Origin: Bradyrhizobium prioriisuperbiae | GTDB lineage: Bacteria; Pseudomonadota; Alphaproteobacteria; Rhizobiales; Xanthobacteraceae | Length of the DNA stretch: 64,000 nucleotides | Assembly (NCBI RefSeq): GCF_032397745.1 | Contig: NZ_CP135921.1 | Span: 248,001 to 312,000, forward strand | Direction of reading: 5' to 3' | Shown: piece by piece, positions 973 to 12,613 of the stretch | Layout: each line of letters begins with the position of its first letter | Position numbering within the stretch: the stretch's first letter is position 1 | Position numbers and translations under genes: made by a program | Notes under the pieces: model-generated | What the model saw: the letters and a program-made list of their open reading frames with translations, nothing else | Database searches by the model: none | Told to the model about the DNA's origin: nothing

Positions 973-2142
973 CTACGGCCGGCTAACGGGTGATGTCACC
1001 ACAATGCGCACAACAGGGTCTCCGGGCGCACTCGCCGTGGTCCAGTGACTCTCATACAGCTCCAGCAGCCAGCTTGACGTCCATCCCCTGTCAACCGCGC
1101 ACGTCAGAATATCGCGCATCGATCCGCTCCGGTGTTCGACGTCAACAACTGCGTCTTCTGCCCGTTGCACCTCCTTCATCCCCAACTGGCGGCAGAGTCT
1201 CTTTCCGTCCTTGGTCCACGCACGTGCCGTAATTTCGGATACGAACAGGCGCTTGAACGCGCCCGCCAACAAAACGAAAAAAAACGATTCAATAAGCAGC
1301 CCTATGCCATCGTTCTTGTGTCCAGGTTCGATGCCGATCATAGATAAATATGCGGGATAATCGCCGCCAAAGTGGAAGTCCGGCATCATTTCCATACTCA
1401 GTTCATCCTCAGCTATTCTTCCAACCTTGACCTCTCTGTAAAATTCGTCGAACAGCAGATGCATTTCCCAATAGCCGACAATATTGTCGTCATTGTCCAC
1501 CAGCAGTCGCCAATGCTCGGAATGGTTCCAGAATATCTCTTCCCACTGCTCCACGGTGCCCTCGTCTCGCGGATCGCTAAATCCCAACAACTTGTTATCC
1601 AGCCGAACTAATATTTCAGCCAGTCTCTTTGCAGGATCTTCCCATCCCCAGCCGATCACATCGTTTATGTTGGCAATGCGATGTCGGCTTGGGGCAAGGC
1701 CCAACTTCTTCCGAATTGCATTGCGAAGCTGGTCAAGATCGCTATCGAAGGACTCGTGCCTTATCTGCAGGAACTCCATCCCGGCAATCGAACGGGCAAC
1801 ATCGTCCAAGTCGCGCTGTTCCGGCTCTCTCGCGCCGTCGACGTAGACCGGAATAATCTCTTTGCTGGTCGCGAGTGCAGTCTCCACTTCAATGCGGCAA
1901 TAATCTTTCGCCGCGTCGGCTTGCGACAGGCGTGTGAACCAATGCAGCCCTATGACGAACAGGACAATGTGAGATTCGCTTATGGATTTCCTAAGTCTGG
2001 CCTCCAGATCACTTCCGGGAGAGCGCTGGTCCTGATCCCAAAAAACCTTTTTTCCTGGAAACGCACGGGTCAAATGCTGCGCAATCAATCGGGCAGACGA
2101 AGCGCCGTCAGTCCACCGGTAGCTGATAAAAATATCAGACAC
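973..2142 (-). CDS. TIR-domain / GNAT-fold fusion protein
   Basis: A two-domain cytoplasmic protein of 389 residues. Residues ~2-140 form a TIR domain: DIFISYRW opens it, and YCRIEVETAL at 81-90 aligns with the WVHKEIVTAL segment of SARM1, so E85 is the predicted NAD-cleaving glutamate. After a linker, residues ~230-350 look like a GNAT acyltransferase: NIVGYWEMH, then IEPGHKNDGIGLLIES (KNDGIG fits the Q/RxxGxG acyl-CoA loop) and a TKDGKRLCRQLGMKE motif-B helix. I chose the GTG at 2142 because GGAGAG lies 5 bases upstream; an in-frame ATG at 2163 has no good ribosome site. The gene is clearly more AT-rich than its neighbours, suggesting transfer. No partner gene is adjacent. TIR NADases often act in antiphage defence; that role here is inferred. 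Confidence 0.85.
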   Translation of the reverse strand: MSDIFISYRWTDGASSARLIAQHLTRAFPGKKVFWDQDQRSPGSDLEARLRKSISESHIVLFVIGLHWFTRLSQADAAKDYCRIEVETALATSKEIIPVYVDGAREPEQRDLDDVARSIAGMEFLQIRHESFDSDLDQLRNAIRKKLGLAPSRHRIANINDVIGWGWEDPAKRLAEILVRLDNKLLGFSDPRDEGTVEQWEEIFWNHSEHWRLLVDNDDNIVGYWEMHLLFDEFYREVKVGRIAEDELSMEMMPDFHFGGDYPAYLSMIGIEPGHKNDGIGLLIESFFFVLLAGAFKRLFVSEITARAWTKDGKRLCRQLGMKEVQRAEDAVVDVEHRSGSMRDILTCAVDRGWTSSWLLELYESHWTTASAPGDPVVRIVVTSPVSRP

Positions 2143-2379: not shown

Positions 2380-5300
2380 CTAGGATGACTCCACTTCACT
2401 CTCGGGCGCGGTTTTGGCCTCCTCCGCCTGCCCATAGCCCGGCGCCTTGATCCGGAACCAGGTGACATACAGCGCCGGCAGGAACAACAGCGTCAGCACG
2501 GTGCCGACGATGATGCCGCCCATCATCGCATACGCCATCGGCCCCCAGAATACCTCGCGGGCGATCGGGATCAGCGCCAGGCTTGCGGCCGCCGCCGTCA
2601 GCATGATCGGCCGCATCCGGTGTTCGGTCGCTTCCATCACCGCCTCCCACGCCGGCCGGCCTTCCTCGCGCAGATGCTCGATCTGCACGATCAGGATCAC
2701 CGAGTTGCGGATCAGGATGCCGATCAGCGCCAGCACGCCGAGGATGGCGACGAAGCCGAGTGGCGCGCCGCTGGGCAACAGCGCTGCGACCACGCCGATC
2801 AGCGCCAGCGGCGCCACGGCAAAGACCAGGAACAACCGCTGGAAGCTCTGCAACTGCAGCATCAGGATGGTCGCCATGACGAACAGCATCAGTGGCACGA
2901 CCGCGACGATCGGCGCCTGGCTCTTGCCGCTTTCCTCGACGCTGCCACCGACCACGACATTGTAACCCGGCGGCAGTTTGTCGTCGAAGGCGGCGATCTG
3001 CGGCTTCAGCTGATCGACCACCGTATTCGGCTGCACCGCATCCAGGATGCCGGCCTTCAACGTGATGGTCGGCAGCCGCGAGCGGCGCCAGATCGTGGGC
3101 TGCTCGATCTCGTAACGCAACGTCGCCACCGCGGCGAGCGGCACCGACTGGCCGCCGCTGCCGGCCAGTTGCAGGTCGCGCAGGGTCTCGAGCGACTGGC
3201 GTTCGGTCGCCTTGGCGCGCCCCAGCACCTTGATCAGATAGATGTCGTCGCGCACCTGGGTCACCGAGGTGCCGTCGAGCACACCGTTGAGGGTCGAGGC
3301 GATGTCTTCCGAACTGACGCCGAGCTGCCGCGCCTTGTCCTGCAGCACGTCGACCTTGACCACGCGCGCCGGCTCCATCCAGTCGAACACCACGTCGCCG
3401 AGATGCGGATTGCTGCGCAGCACGCCAGCGAGCTCGAGCGAATAGCTGCGCACCTTGGCGATATCGGGCCCGCTGACGCGATACTGTATCGGGCGGCCGA
3501 CCGGCGGGCCGATGTCCAGCAATTTCACAAAGGCATCGGTACCGGGGAACGTTTTCTTCAGATAGGCCTGCAACTCCCCCCTGAGGCGATCGCGCACCTT
3601 GAGGCCCTTGGTGACGATGACGACCTGGCCGAAGGTGACGTCGGCCGGCTGCACGTCGAACGACAGCACGAACCGCGGCGCGCCGGTGCCGACATAACTC
3701 GACCAGTGATCGATGCCGTCCCTGCCCTGCAGCGCCTCGCGCTCGAATTGCGCGATCTGCGCGTTGGTTTCCGCGATCGACGAGTTCTGCGGCAGGTTCC
3801 AGTCGACCACCAGCTCATTGCGATCGGACGACGGAAAGAACTGCTGCTGCACGAATTTCATGCCGCCCAGCGACAGCGCAAACACCACCACGGTCACGGC
3901 GATGGTGATCCAGTGGCGACGCATGCAGATGTCGAGAATCTGCGCGAAAATCCGGGCGAAGCGGCCTTTCTCCTCATGATGGCTCTTCATCGCCTCGGGC
4001 AGGATGGTGACGCCGAGCAGCGGTGTAAACAGCACCGCGACGATCCACGACACCACCAATGACACCGCGATCACCACAAACAGCGTGAAGGTGAATTCGC
4101 CGGCGGCGCTGTTGTTCAATCCGATCGGAATGAAGCCGGCGACCGTGACCAGGGTGCCGGTGAGCATCGGGAATGCGGTCGAGGTGTAGACATAAGTCGC
4201 TGCCTTGGTCAGCGTATCCCCAACCTCGAGCCGCGCGACCATCATCTCGACCGCGATCATGGCATCGTCGACCAAAAGGCCGAGCGCGATGATCAGGGCG
4301 CCGAGGGAAATCCGCTGCAGTGAAATCCCGGCATAAGCCATCACCACAAAGGTGATGGCGAGCACCAGCGGAATCGAGATCGCGACCACCAGACCTGCGC
4401 GCATTCCCAGGCTGATGAAGCTGATAGCCAGCACGATGACCACGGCCTCGAACAGCGCCCGGGTGAAGCCGCCCACCGCTTCCTCCACGATCTGCGGCTG
4501 ATCGGACACGAGGTGCACGCCGACGCCGATCGGCAGGTCGGCCACGATCCGGGTCATCTTGTGCTTCAGTGCTTCGCCGAACTGCAGCAAATTGGCGCCG
4601 GCCTTCATGCCGATGGCGAGACCGATCGCCGGCTCGCCATTGAAACGAAACAGCGAGGTCGGCGGATCGGCATAGCCGCGGGTGATGGTGGCGACGTCGG
4701 TGAGCGGAAAGAAACGATCGTTGACCCGCAGGTTGATGGCCTTCAGGCTGTCTTCCGTGGTGAACTGGCCGCTGACCCGGACACTGATCCGTTCCGGACC
4801 GGCCTGTAGCACACCCGACGGCGCGATCGCATTCTGCGCCTGCAGAGCGCTGACGATCGTGCGGCCGTCGAGACCCAGTGCGGCAACCTTGCGGGTGGAG
4901 AATTCGAGATAGATCACCTCGTCCTGGGCGCCGACGATGTCGACGCGGCCGACATTCGGTACGGTCAGCACCTGGGCGCGCACGTCCTCGACCCGGTCAC
5001 GCAACTGCCGCTGACTCAAGCCGTCGCTGGTGAAGGCATAGATGTTGCCGTAGACATCGCCGAACCGGTCGTTGAAGCCAGGCCCGACCACGCCTTGCGG
5101 GAAACTGCTCTTGATATCGGCGACCATGTTGCGCACCCGCACCCAGGTCGGGGCCACGTCCTGCGCCTTGGTGGTGTCGCGCAAATTGACAAAGATCGTG
5201 GTTTGCCCTGCAACCGTCAGGCTCTTGGTGTAGTCGAGCGATTCCAGCTCTTCGAGCTTCTTCTCGATCCGATCGGTGACCTGGCGCGTCATCTCCTCGG

Positions 5301-5475
5301 CGGAGGCACCGGGCCACTGTGCCTGGATCAGCATGGTCTTGATGGTGAAGGCGGGATCTTCCTCGCGCCCGAGCTGCAGATAAGAGAACAGCCCGGCTGC
5401 CATGAAGGCGATCATGAAATACCAGACCAGCGAACGGTGATGGAGCGCCCAGTCAGACAGGTTGAATGATTTCAC
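2380..5475 (-). CDS. RND multidrug efflux permease
   Basis: An inner-membrane proton-driven pump of the AcrB/HAE family, 1031 residues, the normal length. It has the family layout of one N-terminal membrane helix (LVWYFMIAFMAAGLFSYL), a large periplasmic loop, a six-helix bundle, and a second copy of this arrangement. GLLVDDAMIAVE at ~396-407 is the TM4 motif whose paired aspartates relay protons. It is the last gene of an operon: its ATG overlaps the TGA of the preceding adaptor by 4 bases (5472-5475), so translation is probably coupled. Early sequence (LGREEDPAFTIKTMLI) is typical of pumps served by two adaptors. No outer-membrane factor is encoded here, so a TolC-like partner must come from elsewhere. 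Substrate unknown. Confidence 0.95.
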   Translation of the reverse strand: MKSFNLSDWALHHRSLVWYFMIAFMAAGLFSYLQLGREEDPAFTIKTMLIQAQWPGASAEEMTRQVTDRIEKKLEELESLDYTKSLTVAGQTTIFVNLRDTTKAQDVAPTWVRVRNMVADIKSSFPQGVVGPGFNDRFGDVYGNIYAFTSDGLSQRQLRDRVEDVRAQVLTVPNVGRVDIVGAQDEVIYLEFSTRKVAALGLDGRTIVSALQAQNAIAPSGVLQAGPERISVRVSGQFTTEDSLKAINLRVNDRFFPLTDVATITRGYADPPTSLFRFNGEPAIGLAIGMKAGANLLQFGEALKHKMTRIVADLPIGVGVHLVSDQPQIVEEAVGGFTRALFEAVVIVLAISFISLGMRAGLVVAISIPLVLAITFVVMAYAGISLQRISLGALIIALGLLVDDAMIAVEMMVARLEVGDTLTKAATYVYTSTAFPMLTGTLVTVAGFIPIGLNNSAAGEFTFTLFVVIAVSLVVSWIVAVLFTPLLGVTILPEAMKSHHEEKGRFARIFAQILDICMRRHWITIAVTVVVFALSLGGMKFVQQQFFPSSDRNELVVDWNLPQNSSIAETNAQIAQFEREALQGRDGIDHWSSYVGTGAPRFVLSFDVQPADVTFGQVVIVTKGLKVRDRLRGELQAYLKKTFPGTDAFVKLLDIGPPVGRPIQYRVSGPDIAKVRSYSLELAGVLRSNPHLGDVVFDWMEPARVVKVDVLQDKARQLGVSSEDIASTLNGVLDGTSVTQVRDDIYLIKVLGRAKATERQSLETLRDLQLAGSGGQSVPLAAVATLRYEIEQPTIWRRSRLPTITLKAGILDAVQPNTVVDQLKPQIAAFDDKLPPGYNVVVGGSVEESGKSQAPIVAVVPLMLFVMATILMLQLQSFQRLFLVFAVAPLALIGVVAALLPSGAPLGFVAILGVLALIGILIRNSVILIVQIEHLREEGRPAWEAVMEATEHRMRPIMLTAAAASLALIPIAREVFWGPMAYAMMGGIIVGTVLTLLFLPALYVTWFRIKAPGYGQAEEAKTAPESEVESS

Positions 5476-6647
5476 GGGGTCGCTTCCTGATCGATGCGGA
5501 CCTTCTGGCCCTCGGCAAGACTGTGCACGCCGGCGGTGGCGACGCGCGCGCCAGCGTCGAGACCGGCGGTGACACGCACGCCGCCATCATCATCCTTGGT
5601 GCTTTGGATTTCGCGCAGCGCCACGGTGTGGCTCGACGGATCGACCAGCCAGACGAAATTCTTGCCGTCCCTGGCGAGGATGGCCGACGGCGGTACCCGC
5701 AGGCCTTGCACGACGGCGCCGGCCAGCACCGTCGTCACCGTGGTGCCGAGCCGGAAGGTTTCCGGCGGATGGTCGAGGGTGATGCGGACACGCCGCGAAC
5801 GGGTCACCGCATCGGCTTGCGGCGCGATCTCGCGCACCTTGCCTTCGGCCTTGATCGAGGGATCGAGCTGCAGGCTGACCGCGAAGGGCATACCGATCGA
5901 CAACGCACCGGCGATATTGTCAGCGACGTCGATGACAGCTTCGCGCACATCGGGACGCGCCACCGTCACCACGGCCTGGCCCGGCGACACCACCTGACCG
6001 ACTTCAGCGTTGATTGCGGTGACGACACCGGCAAAATCGGATTTCAGCTGGGCATAACCGAGCTGTTCGCGCGCCTTGGTGAGATTTGCCTGGGCGCGGA
6101 TGACGGAGGCCTGCGCAGCGGCGCGGCTCTGCTCCGCGGTCTCAAGCGTCGCCTTGCTGGTGGCGTCGGTTTCCATCAGCGTCCGCTGGCGTCCCTCCGC
6201 GCCGGTCGCATTGGTCAATTGCGCCTGGGCGCTCGACACATCCGCAATCGCCGAGCGCACCGCGAGCTCGAGCGAGGCCGGATCGATCGCGGCCACGACT
6301 TGCCCCTTGTCGACGTTATCGCCGACATTGACCGACCGCGCCACCAGCCGCCCGAGCACACGAAAGCTGAGATCGGTCTTGAACTGCGGCTGCACGGTGC
6401 CGACGATAAAGGCATTGTCCGCCGATGCCGGGGCGACCACGGCCGAGAGCACCGGCCGCACCGGAACGGGGGCTGCGACTTTTTCGTTGCAACCGGCGAC
6501 CGTGATGCAGGTGCTCAACAACAAGGTGATGCGCGTAGCCCGGGTGAGCGGAGCGATACCCGGGATCAACTTCGCGACGCCCACCCCGGATGTCGCTTCG
6601 CTCATCCGGGCTACGGAGGCGATGGACTTGGCATGATGGAACATCAT
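5472..6647 (-). CDS. RND periplasmic adaptor lipoprotein (second of two), with REP-like leader
   Basis: A membrane-fusion protein of 391 residues with the usual barrel-sandwich, alpha-hairpin and beta-barrel order (VGTVQPQFKTDLSFRVLGRL; paired lipoyl half at VVSPGQAVVTVARPD). The export signal ITLLLSTCITVAGC ends in a lipobox, so the mature protein should be acylated at Cys53. The first ATG overlaps the upstream adaptor's stop as ATGA (6644-6647). Residues ~12-38, just before the hydrophobic signal core, are encoded entirely by an 80-bp palindromic repeat (6535-6614). Either the repeat inserted in frame and now supplies the n-region of the signal peptide, or translation begins inside it at the ATG for residue 15. 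It sits between adaptor 1 and the pump in a three-gene operon. Confidence 0.92.
   Translation of the reverse strand: MMFHHAKSIASVARMSEATSGVGVAKLIPGIAPLTRATRITLLLSTCITVAGCNEKVAAPVPVRPVLSAVVAPASADNAFIVGTVQPQFKTDLSFRVLGRLVARSVNVGDNVDKGQVVAAIDPASLELAVRSAIADVSSAQAQLTNATGAEGRQRTLMETDATSKATLETAEQSRAAAQASVIRAQANLTKAREQLGYAQLKSDFAGVVTAINAEVGQVVSPGQAVVTVARPDVREAVIDVADNIAGALSIGMPFAVSLQLDPSIKAEGKVREIAPQADAVTRSRRVRITLDHPPETFRLGTTVTTVLAGAVVQGLRVPPSAILARDGKNFVWLVDPSSHTVALREIQSTKDDDGGVRVTAGLDAGARVATAGVHSLAEGQKVRIDQEATP
6535..6614. repeat. 80-bp REP-like imperfect palindrome inside a coding sequence
   Basis: The left arm begins GTAGCCCGGGTGAGCGGAGC and the right arm, read on the other strand, begins GTAGCCCGGATGAGCGAAGC. 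Each ~30-base arm is itself a small palindrome (CCCGG...CCGGG), giving a double-hairpin shape. I recall this wording as a family of extragenic palindromes in Bradyrhizobium and relatives. Here it lies inside the leader of an adaptor gene with the frame kept open. No second full copy was found in the window. Confidence 0.85.
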
Positions 6648-8587: not shown

Positions 8588-9145
8588 ATGTCAGCAAATC
8601 TTGTCTTCACAGTGGGACACTCCAACAGGACGCTGTCCGACTTCATCGCCGTTCTCCGCTCCGCCGGGATCTTGGCACTGGTCGACGTGCGGCGGTATCC
8701 CGCCTCGCGACGGCATCCGCATTTCAACGCTACCCCGCTGAAGAACGAACTGGCCGCAGTCGGAATTGGCTATCGGCATTTTCCCGACCTTGGCGGTTAT
8801 CGGGATAATCCTGTCGTCTCATCCTCAGGTCCGAACGACGGCTGGCCACCGGGATTTCTGCGCAATTATGCAGACTATGCGATGACCGAGGTGTTTCAGG
8901 CCGCATTGACTCGTCGGCGCGACACGCTGCAGCCAAAGACCGCGCTGATGTGCGCCGAGAAGTCGTGGACCGACTGTCACCGGCAAATCATCTCGGACTA
9001 TCTGATCGCGCGGAGGCATGAGATCATTCACGTGATCGATGCCGAGGGCCGCGAACAGGGAGCATTGACTGCGTTTGCCCGGCCAACGGAGGGAGGACTC
9101 ATCACCTACCCCGCCGCCCGATCACAATTGCAGCTCGATCTTTAG
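8588..9145 (+). CDS. DUF488 domain protein
   Basis: A 185-residue cytoplasmic protein of the DUF488 family, whose biochemical function is not established. Family marks are the opening FTVGHSNRTLSDFIAVL, VDVRRYPASRRHPHFN, FPDLGGYRD, and the late CAEKSWTDCHRQIISDYL with two conserved cysteines (the 'CaE.....CHR' motif). It follows the TetR gene by 12 bases on the same strand, so it may be induced with the efflux operon, though a link to efflux is only positional. The ATG has no strong ribosome site, which would fit translational coupling to tetR. A long hairpin follows the stop. Confidence 0.88.
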   Translation: MSANLVFTVGHSNRTLSDFIAVLRSAGILALVDVRRYPASRRHPHFNATPLKNELAAVGIGYRHFPDLGGYRDNPVVSSSGPNDGWPPGFLRNYADYAMTEVFQAALTRRRDTLQPKTALMCAEKSWTDCHRQIISDYLIARRHEIIHVIDAEGREQGALTAFARPTEGGLITYPAARSQLQLDL

Positions 9146-11290: not shown

Positions 11291-11410
11291 CTGCAAGCGC
11301 TTCAGTGAGCCAAAATTGTGTATGAGGGCCGGAAATGGAGCACACAACGCGTCACATACGCAATATCGTTGATAAGGCAGACGACTCTCTTCGGCGCCGA
11401 GGCCCTCACC

Positions 11411-12613
11411 ATGCTGATCATCAACGACCATAAGGATCACGGCAAACCGCTCGACGCAGGCGATGCCGCAACGATCGGCCTTGCCGCCGCGAGCGAGGCG
11501 GAACGCTTTCTCGAACAGCGCGACGGGCACAGGCCAACCCCGCTGCTCTCCCTTCCCAGCCTGGCCCGCGAGTTGGGTGTCGCCGCAATCCACATCAAGG
11601 ACGAAGGCCATCGCCTGGGCCTCGGCAGCTTTAAAGCGCTGGGCGGCTCGTACGCGGTCATCCGCCTGATTGTCGAGGAGGCGTCTCGCCAGCTCGGCCG
11701 GACGATCGATATCTCGGAGTTTCGCTCACCGGATGTCCACGCTGTAGCGGCAAAACTGACCGTCGCCTGCGCGACCGACGGCAACCACGGCCGCTCCGTG
11801 GCCCAAGGCGCCAAGCTTGTCGGCGCCAAATGCGTCATCTTCGTTCATGCCGGCGTCAGCGATGCGCGCGTCAACGCCATCGCGCGCTTTGGCGCCGAGA
11901 CGGTGCGCGTTGCCGGTAATTACGACGATTCCGTCGCGGAGGCGACGCGCGTGGCAAACGAGAGCGGTTGGATCATCGTCTCGGACACGTCATGGCCGGG
12001 ATACGAACGCATTCCGGGACTCGTCATGCAGGGCTATACCGCGCTGCTCCGGGAGGCATTGCGCCAGTTGCCCGAACCGCCGACTCATGTCTTCGTCCAG
12101 GCCGGGGTCGGCGGCATCGCCGCCGCGGTCGCCGGGCATTTCTCGCAGGTCCTCGGTCCGCAGCGTCCGTTCTTTGTCGTGGTCGATCCGGCCCACGCAG
12201 CCTGCCTGTACGAAAGCGCCCGCGCCGGACATCCGGTCAAGCTGTTGCATGGCGAGGCGACGGTCATGGCGATGCTCGAATGCCACGAACCATCGCTCGT
12301 GGCATGGCGTATTCTGTCGCGCACCGCCGACGCCTTCATGACGGTGGAGGATGACGAGGCGATCGACGTGATGAAGCGGCTCGCTCATCCCGTCCCGGAT
12401 GACCCCGTTATCGTTGCAGGCGAGAGCGGCGGCGTCGGTCTTGCCGGGTTGATCCAGATCACACGTGATCCGGCGCTGCGCAATCGCGTCAAACTTGGCG
12501 CCCACGCGCGAATATTCCTTATCAACACGGAAGGGGCGACTGACGCAATCGTTTACGAGCGCCTCGTCGGCCAAACGCCCGGCGCAGTCGCCGGCAAGGG
12601 AACGCACGCATGA
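11411..12613 (+). CDS. dpaL: Diaminopropionate ammonia-lyase (PLP-dependent)
   Basis: A fold-type II PLP enzyme of 400 residues that converts 2,3-diaminopropionate to pyruvate and two ammonia. GSFKALGGSYAV holds the lysine that binds PLP, ACATDGNHGRSVA is the substrate/cofactor loop, GVGGIAAAVAGHF the phosphate-binding glycine loop, and VVDPAHAACLYES a family-specific segment. The ATG at 11411 was chosen over upstream in-frame starts because homology begins at once and GAGG lies ~8 bases ahead. The stop overlaps the ATG of the M20 amidohydrolase (ATGA, 12610-12613), so the two are translated together. With the divergent Lrp gene this forms a compact amino-acid degradation unit. Related threonine or serine dehydratase activity cannot be excluded from sequence alone. 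Confidence 0.9.
   Translation: MLIINDHKDHGKPLDAGDAATIGLAAASEAERFLEQRDGHRPTPLLSLPSLARELGVAAIHIKDEGHRLGLGSFKALGGSYAVIRLIVEEASRQLGRTIDISEFRSPDVHAVAAKLTVACATDGNHGRSVAQGAKLVGAKCVIFVHAGVSDARVNAIARFGAETVRVAGNYDDSVAEATRVANESGWIIVSDTSWPGYERIPGLVMQGYTALLREALRQLPEPPTHVFVQAGVGGIAAAVAGHFSQVLGPQRPFFVVVDPAHAACLYESARAGHPVKLLHGEATVMAMLECHEPSLVAWRILSRTADAFMTVEDDEAIDVMKRLAHPVPDDPVIVAGESGGVGLAGLIQITRDPALRNRVKLGAHARIFLINTEGATDAIVYERLVGQTPGAVAGKGTHA

Follow-up and report, generated by a model that had tools for sequence, protein, structure and literature searches.

What does a GNAT fold do when it stands behind a TIR domain in a single protein? Many bacterial defence proteins join a known killing domain to a sensor whose ligand is unknown. 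The question is raised here by a gene at positions 973..2142 (minus strand) of the 64,000-nucleotide stretch of Bradyrhizobium prioriisuperbiae DNA that was analysed as a whole (the window). The gene encodes 389 amino acids from a GTG start, with an alternative in-frame ATG at 2163 on the same strand, and its product is 100% identical to the database entry P0002, which comes from the window's own genome. An earlier note had described the product as a TIR-GNAT fusion, and this is confirmed by a single open reading frame that contains a TIR signature as well as a GNAT fold match over residues 152-346. The continuous frame rules out a frameshift or an annotation artefact, and the fold comparison of the predicted structure rules out a chance resemblance to GNAT.

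The TIR domain covers residues 1-147 (1702..2142, minus strand) and contains both the fold and the sequence signature. Sequence and predicted structure together establish it as a domain of the predicted NADase type. The putative catalytic glutamate, E85 (codon at 1888-1890, minus strand), aligns with the glutamate of SARM1, and the position is retained in all 12 TIR-containing members of the family presented below, in agreement with its earlier assignment. The C-terminal module covers residues 155-389 (976..1680, minus strand), and the part that matches the GNAT fold is followed by a C-terminal helix at residues 354-370 and a low-confidence tail at residues 378-389. In an alignment of 34 modules, the KNDGIG sequence at residues 276-281 (1300..1317, minus strand) falls where GNAT proteins have their pyrophosphate-binding loop. 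The nearest folds in the GNAT superfamily are CurA GNATL, the GNAT-containing didomain of SxtA, Naa50 and Naa60, all of which share the fold over residues 152-346.

The gene has a GC content of 0.534 and a GC3 of 0.61, compared to GC3 values of 0.72-0.86 in six neighbours, which suggests that it was acquired. This foreign-looking composition bears out the previous description of a gene richer in A/T than those around it. No repeats resembling insertion ends were found flanking it, and scans for promoters and terminators gave results at chance level. The module had no match to Pfam or NCBIfam in the members scanned, and a search of its profile against PDB sequences gave only two matches, both at chance level (best E 1.6). 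PADLOC gave no whole-protein defence match for the window protein; its hits were weak and confined to the TIR part (best E 2.9e-4). A match of the window protein to the GT4-conflict model (E 0.039) was under the cut-off and was taken as chance.

We collected 34 copies of the module, the window's included, from 31 database proteins and three genomic loci (L007, L014 and L015). A search with the full-length protein identified three relatives, each of which matched the C-terminal half only. A profile of this half retrieved 30 proteins at E<=0.001, that of the window among them, and P0005 from the full-length search brought the number to 31, while a third protein search added zero new members. Both profile searches scored the 8000 candidates with the most shared words, and further members may exist. 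L007, from a Myxococcales metagenome-assembled genome (MAG), was the one confirmed case among five stretches matched by one strict peptide pattern in the contigs of 84,980 species genomes. Whole-genome profile searches of five overlapping sets (385, 398, 377, 377 and 317 genomes) identified the fused module only in the window genome (G000, a single contig), the genome of L007 (G443, a draft MAG), G727 and G1131, of which the last two contributed the new members L014 and L015, respectively. The distribution of the fused module is thus very sporadic. No relatives were confirmed in viral contigs (by a pattern-based search), plasmids or phages.

The N-terminal partner of the module varies. Pfam identified TIR_2 in 12 of the 34 proteins, SLFN_AlbA_2 (Schlafen AlbA_2) in four and Trypsin_2 in one (P0024), where the His, Asp and Ser motifs are all present. 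One protein contains a GT4-conflict domain (L007, E 1e-125) and another an HTH_3 domain (L014, 25.4 bits against a cut-off of 23). Two more N-termini look HTH-like by eye only (P0009 and L015), with no HTH according to Pfam, and three are hydrophobic (P0003, P0004 and P0006), with 19-residue means of 1.84-1.96, a range that one TIR member also reaches, at 1.84, within its fold. Five N-termini had no Pfam match (P0005, P0007, P0008, P0010 and P0028), the module stands almost by itself in P0016 and P0029, and P0013, P0030 and P0032 are fragments. In the trees P0013 counts as a TIR member, since it starts inside a TIR-like stretch, for which Pfam makes no call. Judged by alignment and predicted fold, the module is a portable, uncatalogued GNAT-fold domain placed behind many different N-terminal domains. 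In our reading it is the constant input and the N-terminal partner the variable output. Its pairing with TIR, protease, glycosyltransferase and DNA-binding partners gives the module the appearance of a trigger reused across defence or self-destruct proteins. The idea in the earlier note that the GNAT half may gate the TIR domain gains weight from these variable partners behind a constant module.

The two sides of the protein differ in their catalytic motifs. The canonical acyl-CoA loop, [QRK]xxGx[GA], is present in only one of the 34 modules, that of the window protein, in which KNDGIG fits motif A ([QR]xxGx[GA]) if K is allowed; the other 33 modules lack it. P0030, the closest relative with 69% identity across 72% of the query piece, is one of these 33, and the acyl-CoA loop is thus not supported as the gating feature. 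At the position which we take to be that of the usual GNAT general-acid tyrosine, 29 of the 34 modules have a cysteine, two a phenylalanine and one a serine, and two have a gap. By comparison, G223, W225, L230, G241, G260, Y265, G313 and Y363 are fixed in all 30 rows, and W167 and W211 are kept in 29 of them, in counts that exclude P0028, P0030, P0031 and P0032 as fragments. The window protein departs from the residues conserved in the family at positions 226, 259, 307 and 328, and with its sole canonical loop it may differ from its relatives. The motif status and the fixed residues fit a role in binding or switching better than conserved N-acetyltransfer, which is probably not needed by the module and has probably been lost in most members. 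Proteins hold CoA largely through backbone atoms, and it is therefore conceivable that the module binds CoA without the canonical loop.

These residues bear directly on an alternative that we consider unlikely, namely that the GNAT half acts as another catalytic effector beside the TIR NADase, an acyltransferase acting on tRNA, protein or a metabolite in the manner of KacT or AtaT. The structural comparison did match the GNAT toxins KacT and AtaT(R), which share the fold, and the window protein retains KNDGIG. A GNAT domain is a variable co-effector of DndF in the available text of PMC10853773, the reverse of the role proposed for the module here, and the corresponding text of PMC7159879 lists a GCN5-like acetyltransferase among the MoxR-vWA effectors, not as the constant part. 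However, unlike in these toxins, the module is fused behind effectors and its loop is degenerate in the family, with a cysteine replacing the usual tyrosine in most copies. Furthermore, the module stays constant while complete effectors vary, and it is also found behind a DNA-binding HTH in L014.

We consider it an even call that the TIR-GNAT protein is a single-gene conflict TIR effector, probably anti-phage, that is triggered through a GNAT-fold sensor. The module would then be the input or regulatory half that controls its N-terminal partner. It would bind a cue, which may be a protein of the invader or a small ligand lodged in the former acceptor or CoA cleft, and on binding would change shape or assemble. 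The TIR domains could then pair and cleave NAD+, and the loss of NAD+ would bring the infected cell's growth to a halt. Elsewhere in the family, a similar input would drive the trypsin-like protease, the GT4-conflict glycosyltransferase, the Schlafen AlbA_2 domain or the helix-turn-helix. The wider proposal, that a GNAT-fold domain which has lost canonical acetyltransferase features is the universal trigger of an undescribed class of conflict proteins with NADase, protease, glycosyltransferase, Schlafen-type and DNA-binding outputs, so that a single ligand or invader structure bound by the domain would account for all of them, falls somewhat short of an even chance. Because one sensor-like module occurs with at least five output types, a trigger identified for one member could be tried on the other natural ones. 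If the proposal is true, an enzyme fold would have been converted into an immune receptor. The module profile also provides a search tool for proteins with a module that is unnamed in Pfam, NCBIfam and PADLOC.

The protein resembles SARM1, ThsB of Thoeris, TIR-SAVED and the TIR-APAZ protein of SPARTA in the TIR fold, the position of the catalytic glutamate and the joining of TIR to a regulatory partner. It differs in that this partner is a GNAT-fold module rather than ARM-SAM (SARM1), SAVED (TIR-SAVED) or APAZ (SPARTA), and no second subunit is seen adjacent to it. According to the available text of PMC13142454, sensor domains are present in many TIR proteins and govern how the TIR domain oligomerises and becomes active. 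A constant domain with exchangeable TIR, trypsin or GT4 partners is also a feature of the EAD, VMAP, GreA/B-C and AP-GTPase systems, and the parts of PMC7159879 and PMC8195603 available to us include TIR, trypsin and GT4 among the effectors swapped around constant domains. In the new family, the constant domain is instead the GNAT-fold module, and the main texts of these two papers contain zero occurrences of "gnat". We found no description of the GNAT-fold module or of a TIR-GNAT pairing in the literature searched, which covered few subscription journals and no supplements. We class the design of a constant sensor with variable effectors as known, and the GNAT fold as its constant part as the new element.

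Since the effector partners TIR, trypsin and GT4 also occur among those of the EAD and related systems, in the available text of PMC7159879 and PMC8195603, and the design is likewise constant-plus-variable, the module might be a homotypic adaptor, similar to the effector-associated domains (EADs), that recruits effectors to a core system with the same domain, but this is very improbable, as the single-contig genome G000 and G443 (L007), a draft MAG of unstated completeness, each showed one copy of the module and no second protein with it.

The surroundings of the genes bear on whether the trigger belongs to a conflict system at all. A link to defence comes from L007, where PADLOC identified IetA (E 2e-132) and IetS (E 2e-246) at 2642-6024, upstream of the GT4-module gene and on the same strand, with the pair ending 2.65 kb before it. 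IetAS is a proven anti-phage system. A transposase-like ORF, named by eye, is located downstream of the GT4-module gene at 11333-12322. Among ten chosen ORFs around L014 and L015, PADLOC recognised no clear defence protein. A SNF2 helicase near L015 matches DpdE and ZorD (best E 5.6e-139), which we read as the common SNF2 core and not as a defence system, a judgement that could be wrong. The PADLOC searches covered chosen ORFs, four at L007 (the module protein included), seven at L045 and three at L046. The suggestion that homologues lie near defence genes is thus upheld at L007 and not in the neighbourhoods of L014 and L015, and with defence neighbours in one of three readable neighbourhoods of relatives, the association with defence rests on one locus.

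In the window, a TetR/MFP/MFP/RND operon lies upstream of the TIR-GNAT gene, which shares the strand of the RND gene and adjoins an extra folD gene (names assigned by eye). As regards an adjacent antitoxin gene, as in a toxin-antitoxin pair with a GNAT toxin, the listed ORFs of at least 80 amino acids show folD and the RND operon as the flanking genes, at gaps of about 0.2 kb. The window is not a defence island, as no clear defence protein was identified by PADLOC among ten neighbouring window proteins, where the matches consisted of one candidate (PDC) and shared domain types. The candidate match is that of a DUF488-like protein (by eye) at 8588-9145 to PDC-M45B (E 1.8e-27). In G006, a genome of the same family (680 contigs, 92% complete), the RND operon is present with 72% DNA identity over 3.6 kb; the alignment stops 70 bases before the 3' end of the RND gene, a different ORF follows downstream, and the TIR-GNAT protein has no match in that genome. 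The extra folD is located at 6-764 of the window and is one of three folD matches in the genome, the others being 88% identical at C1:5461143 and 56% identical at C1:2380505.

Such surroundings could also belong to a non-defence stress or metabolic sensor, in which the module monitors a metabolite and its partner serves as an ordinary output, such as transcription or the NAD level. Besides the window without a defence island, this explanation draws on the HTH_3 fusion of L014, which adjoins rimO-like and AsmA-like genes (named by eye), and on remote, free-standing GNAT-like relatives that sit among housekeeping-like genes. We nevertheless regard it as rather doubtful, given the very sporadic distribution of the fused module, the GT4-conflict partner at L007 and its IetAS neighbour. 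The free-standing proteins are encoded at L009 (1339-1974), L010 (1426-2163), L011 (1381-1905) and L012 (109-765), with matches to the module at E 2e-10 to 5e-5. They belong to two small, fragmented genomes, G078 and G210, the latter with three copies, and were excluded from the count of 34.

The preferred reading of a sensor with variable outputs also draws on signs that partners were exchanged. The modules of P0026 and P0015 are 57% identical and their TIR domains 26%, whereas P0015 and P0017 are 50% identical in the module and 52% in the TIR domain, and the mismatch in the first pair implies that one of its two TIRs was swapped or newly fused. The GT4 fusion of L007 clusters with P0026 in the module tree, with support of 97/70, which is under the starred level. 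The TIR domain of the window protein reaches 55-88 bits against five module-less TIRs, retrieved in the first place because they resemble it, and at most 32 bits against 11 module-bearing TIRs. In the TIR tree it branches with the same five, chosen for that likeness, at 96/94, and a test in which the 11 module-bearing TIRs other than P0026 were held together gave p 0.097. For the module tree, AU tests rejected neither the grouping of every TIR fusion in a single clade (p 0.195) nor the same grouping minus the window protein (p 0.15), and an independent origin of the TIR fusions is not established by these trees. The first module tree was inferred without P0028, P0030, P0031 and P0032, and the second also without L014 and L015. 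Among the partners themselves, two may be related to retron effectors: the TIR domain of P0023, which is similar to the retron TIR model NF042941 (46.8 bits, cut-off 600), and the P0024 protease, which is similar to RT-Protease_XI (52.7 bits, PADLOC).
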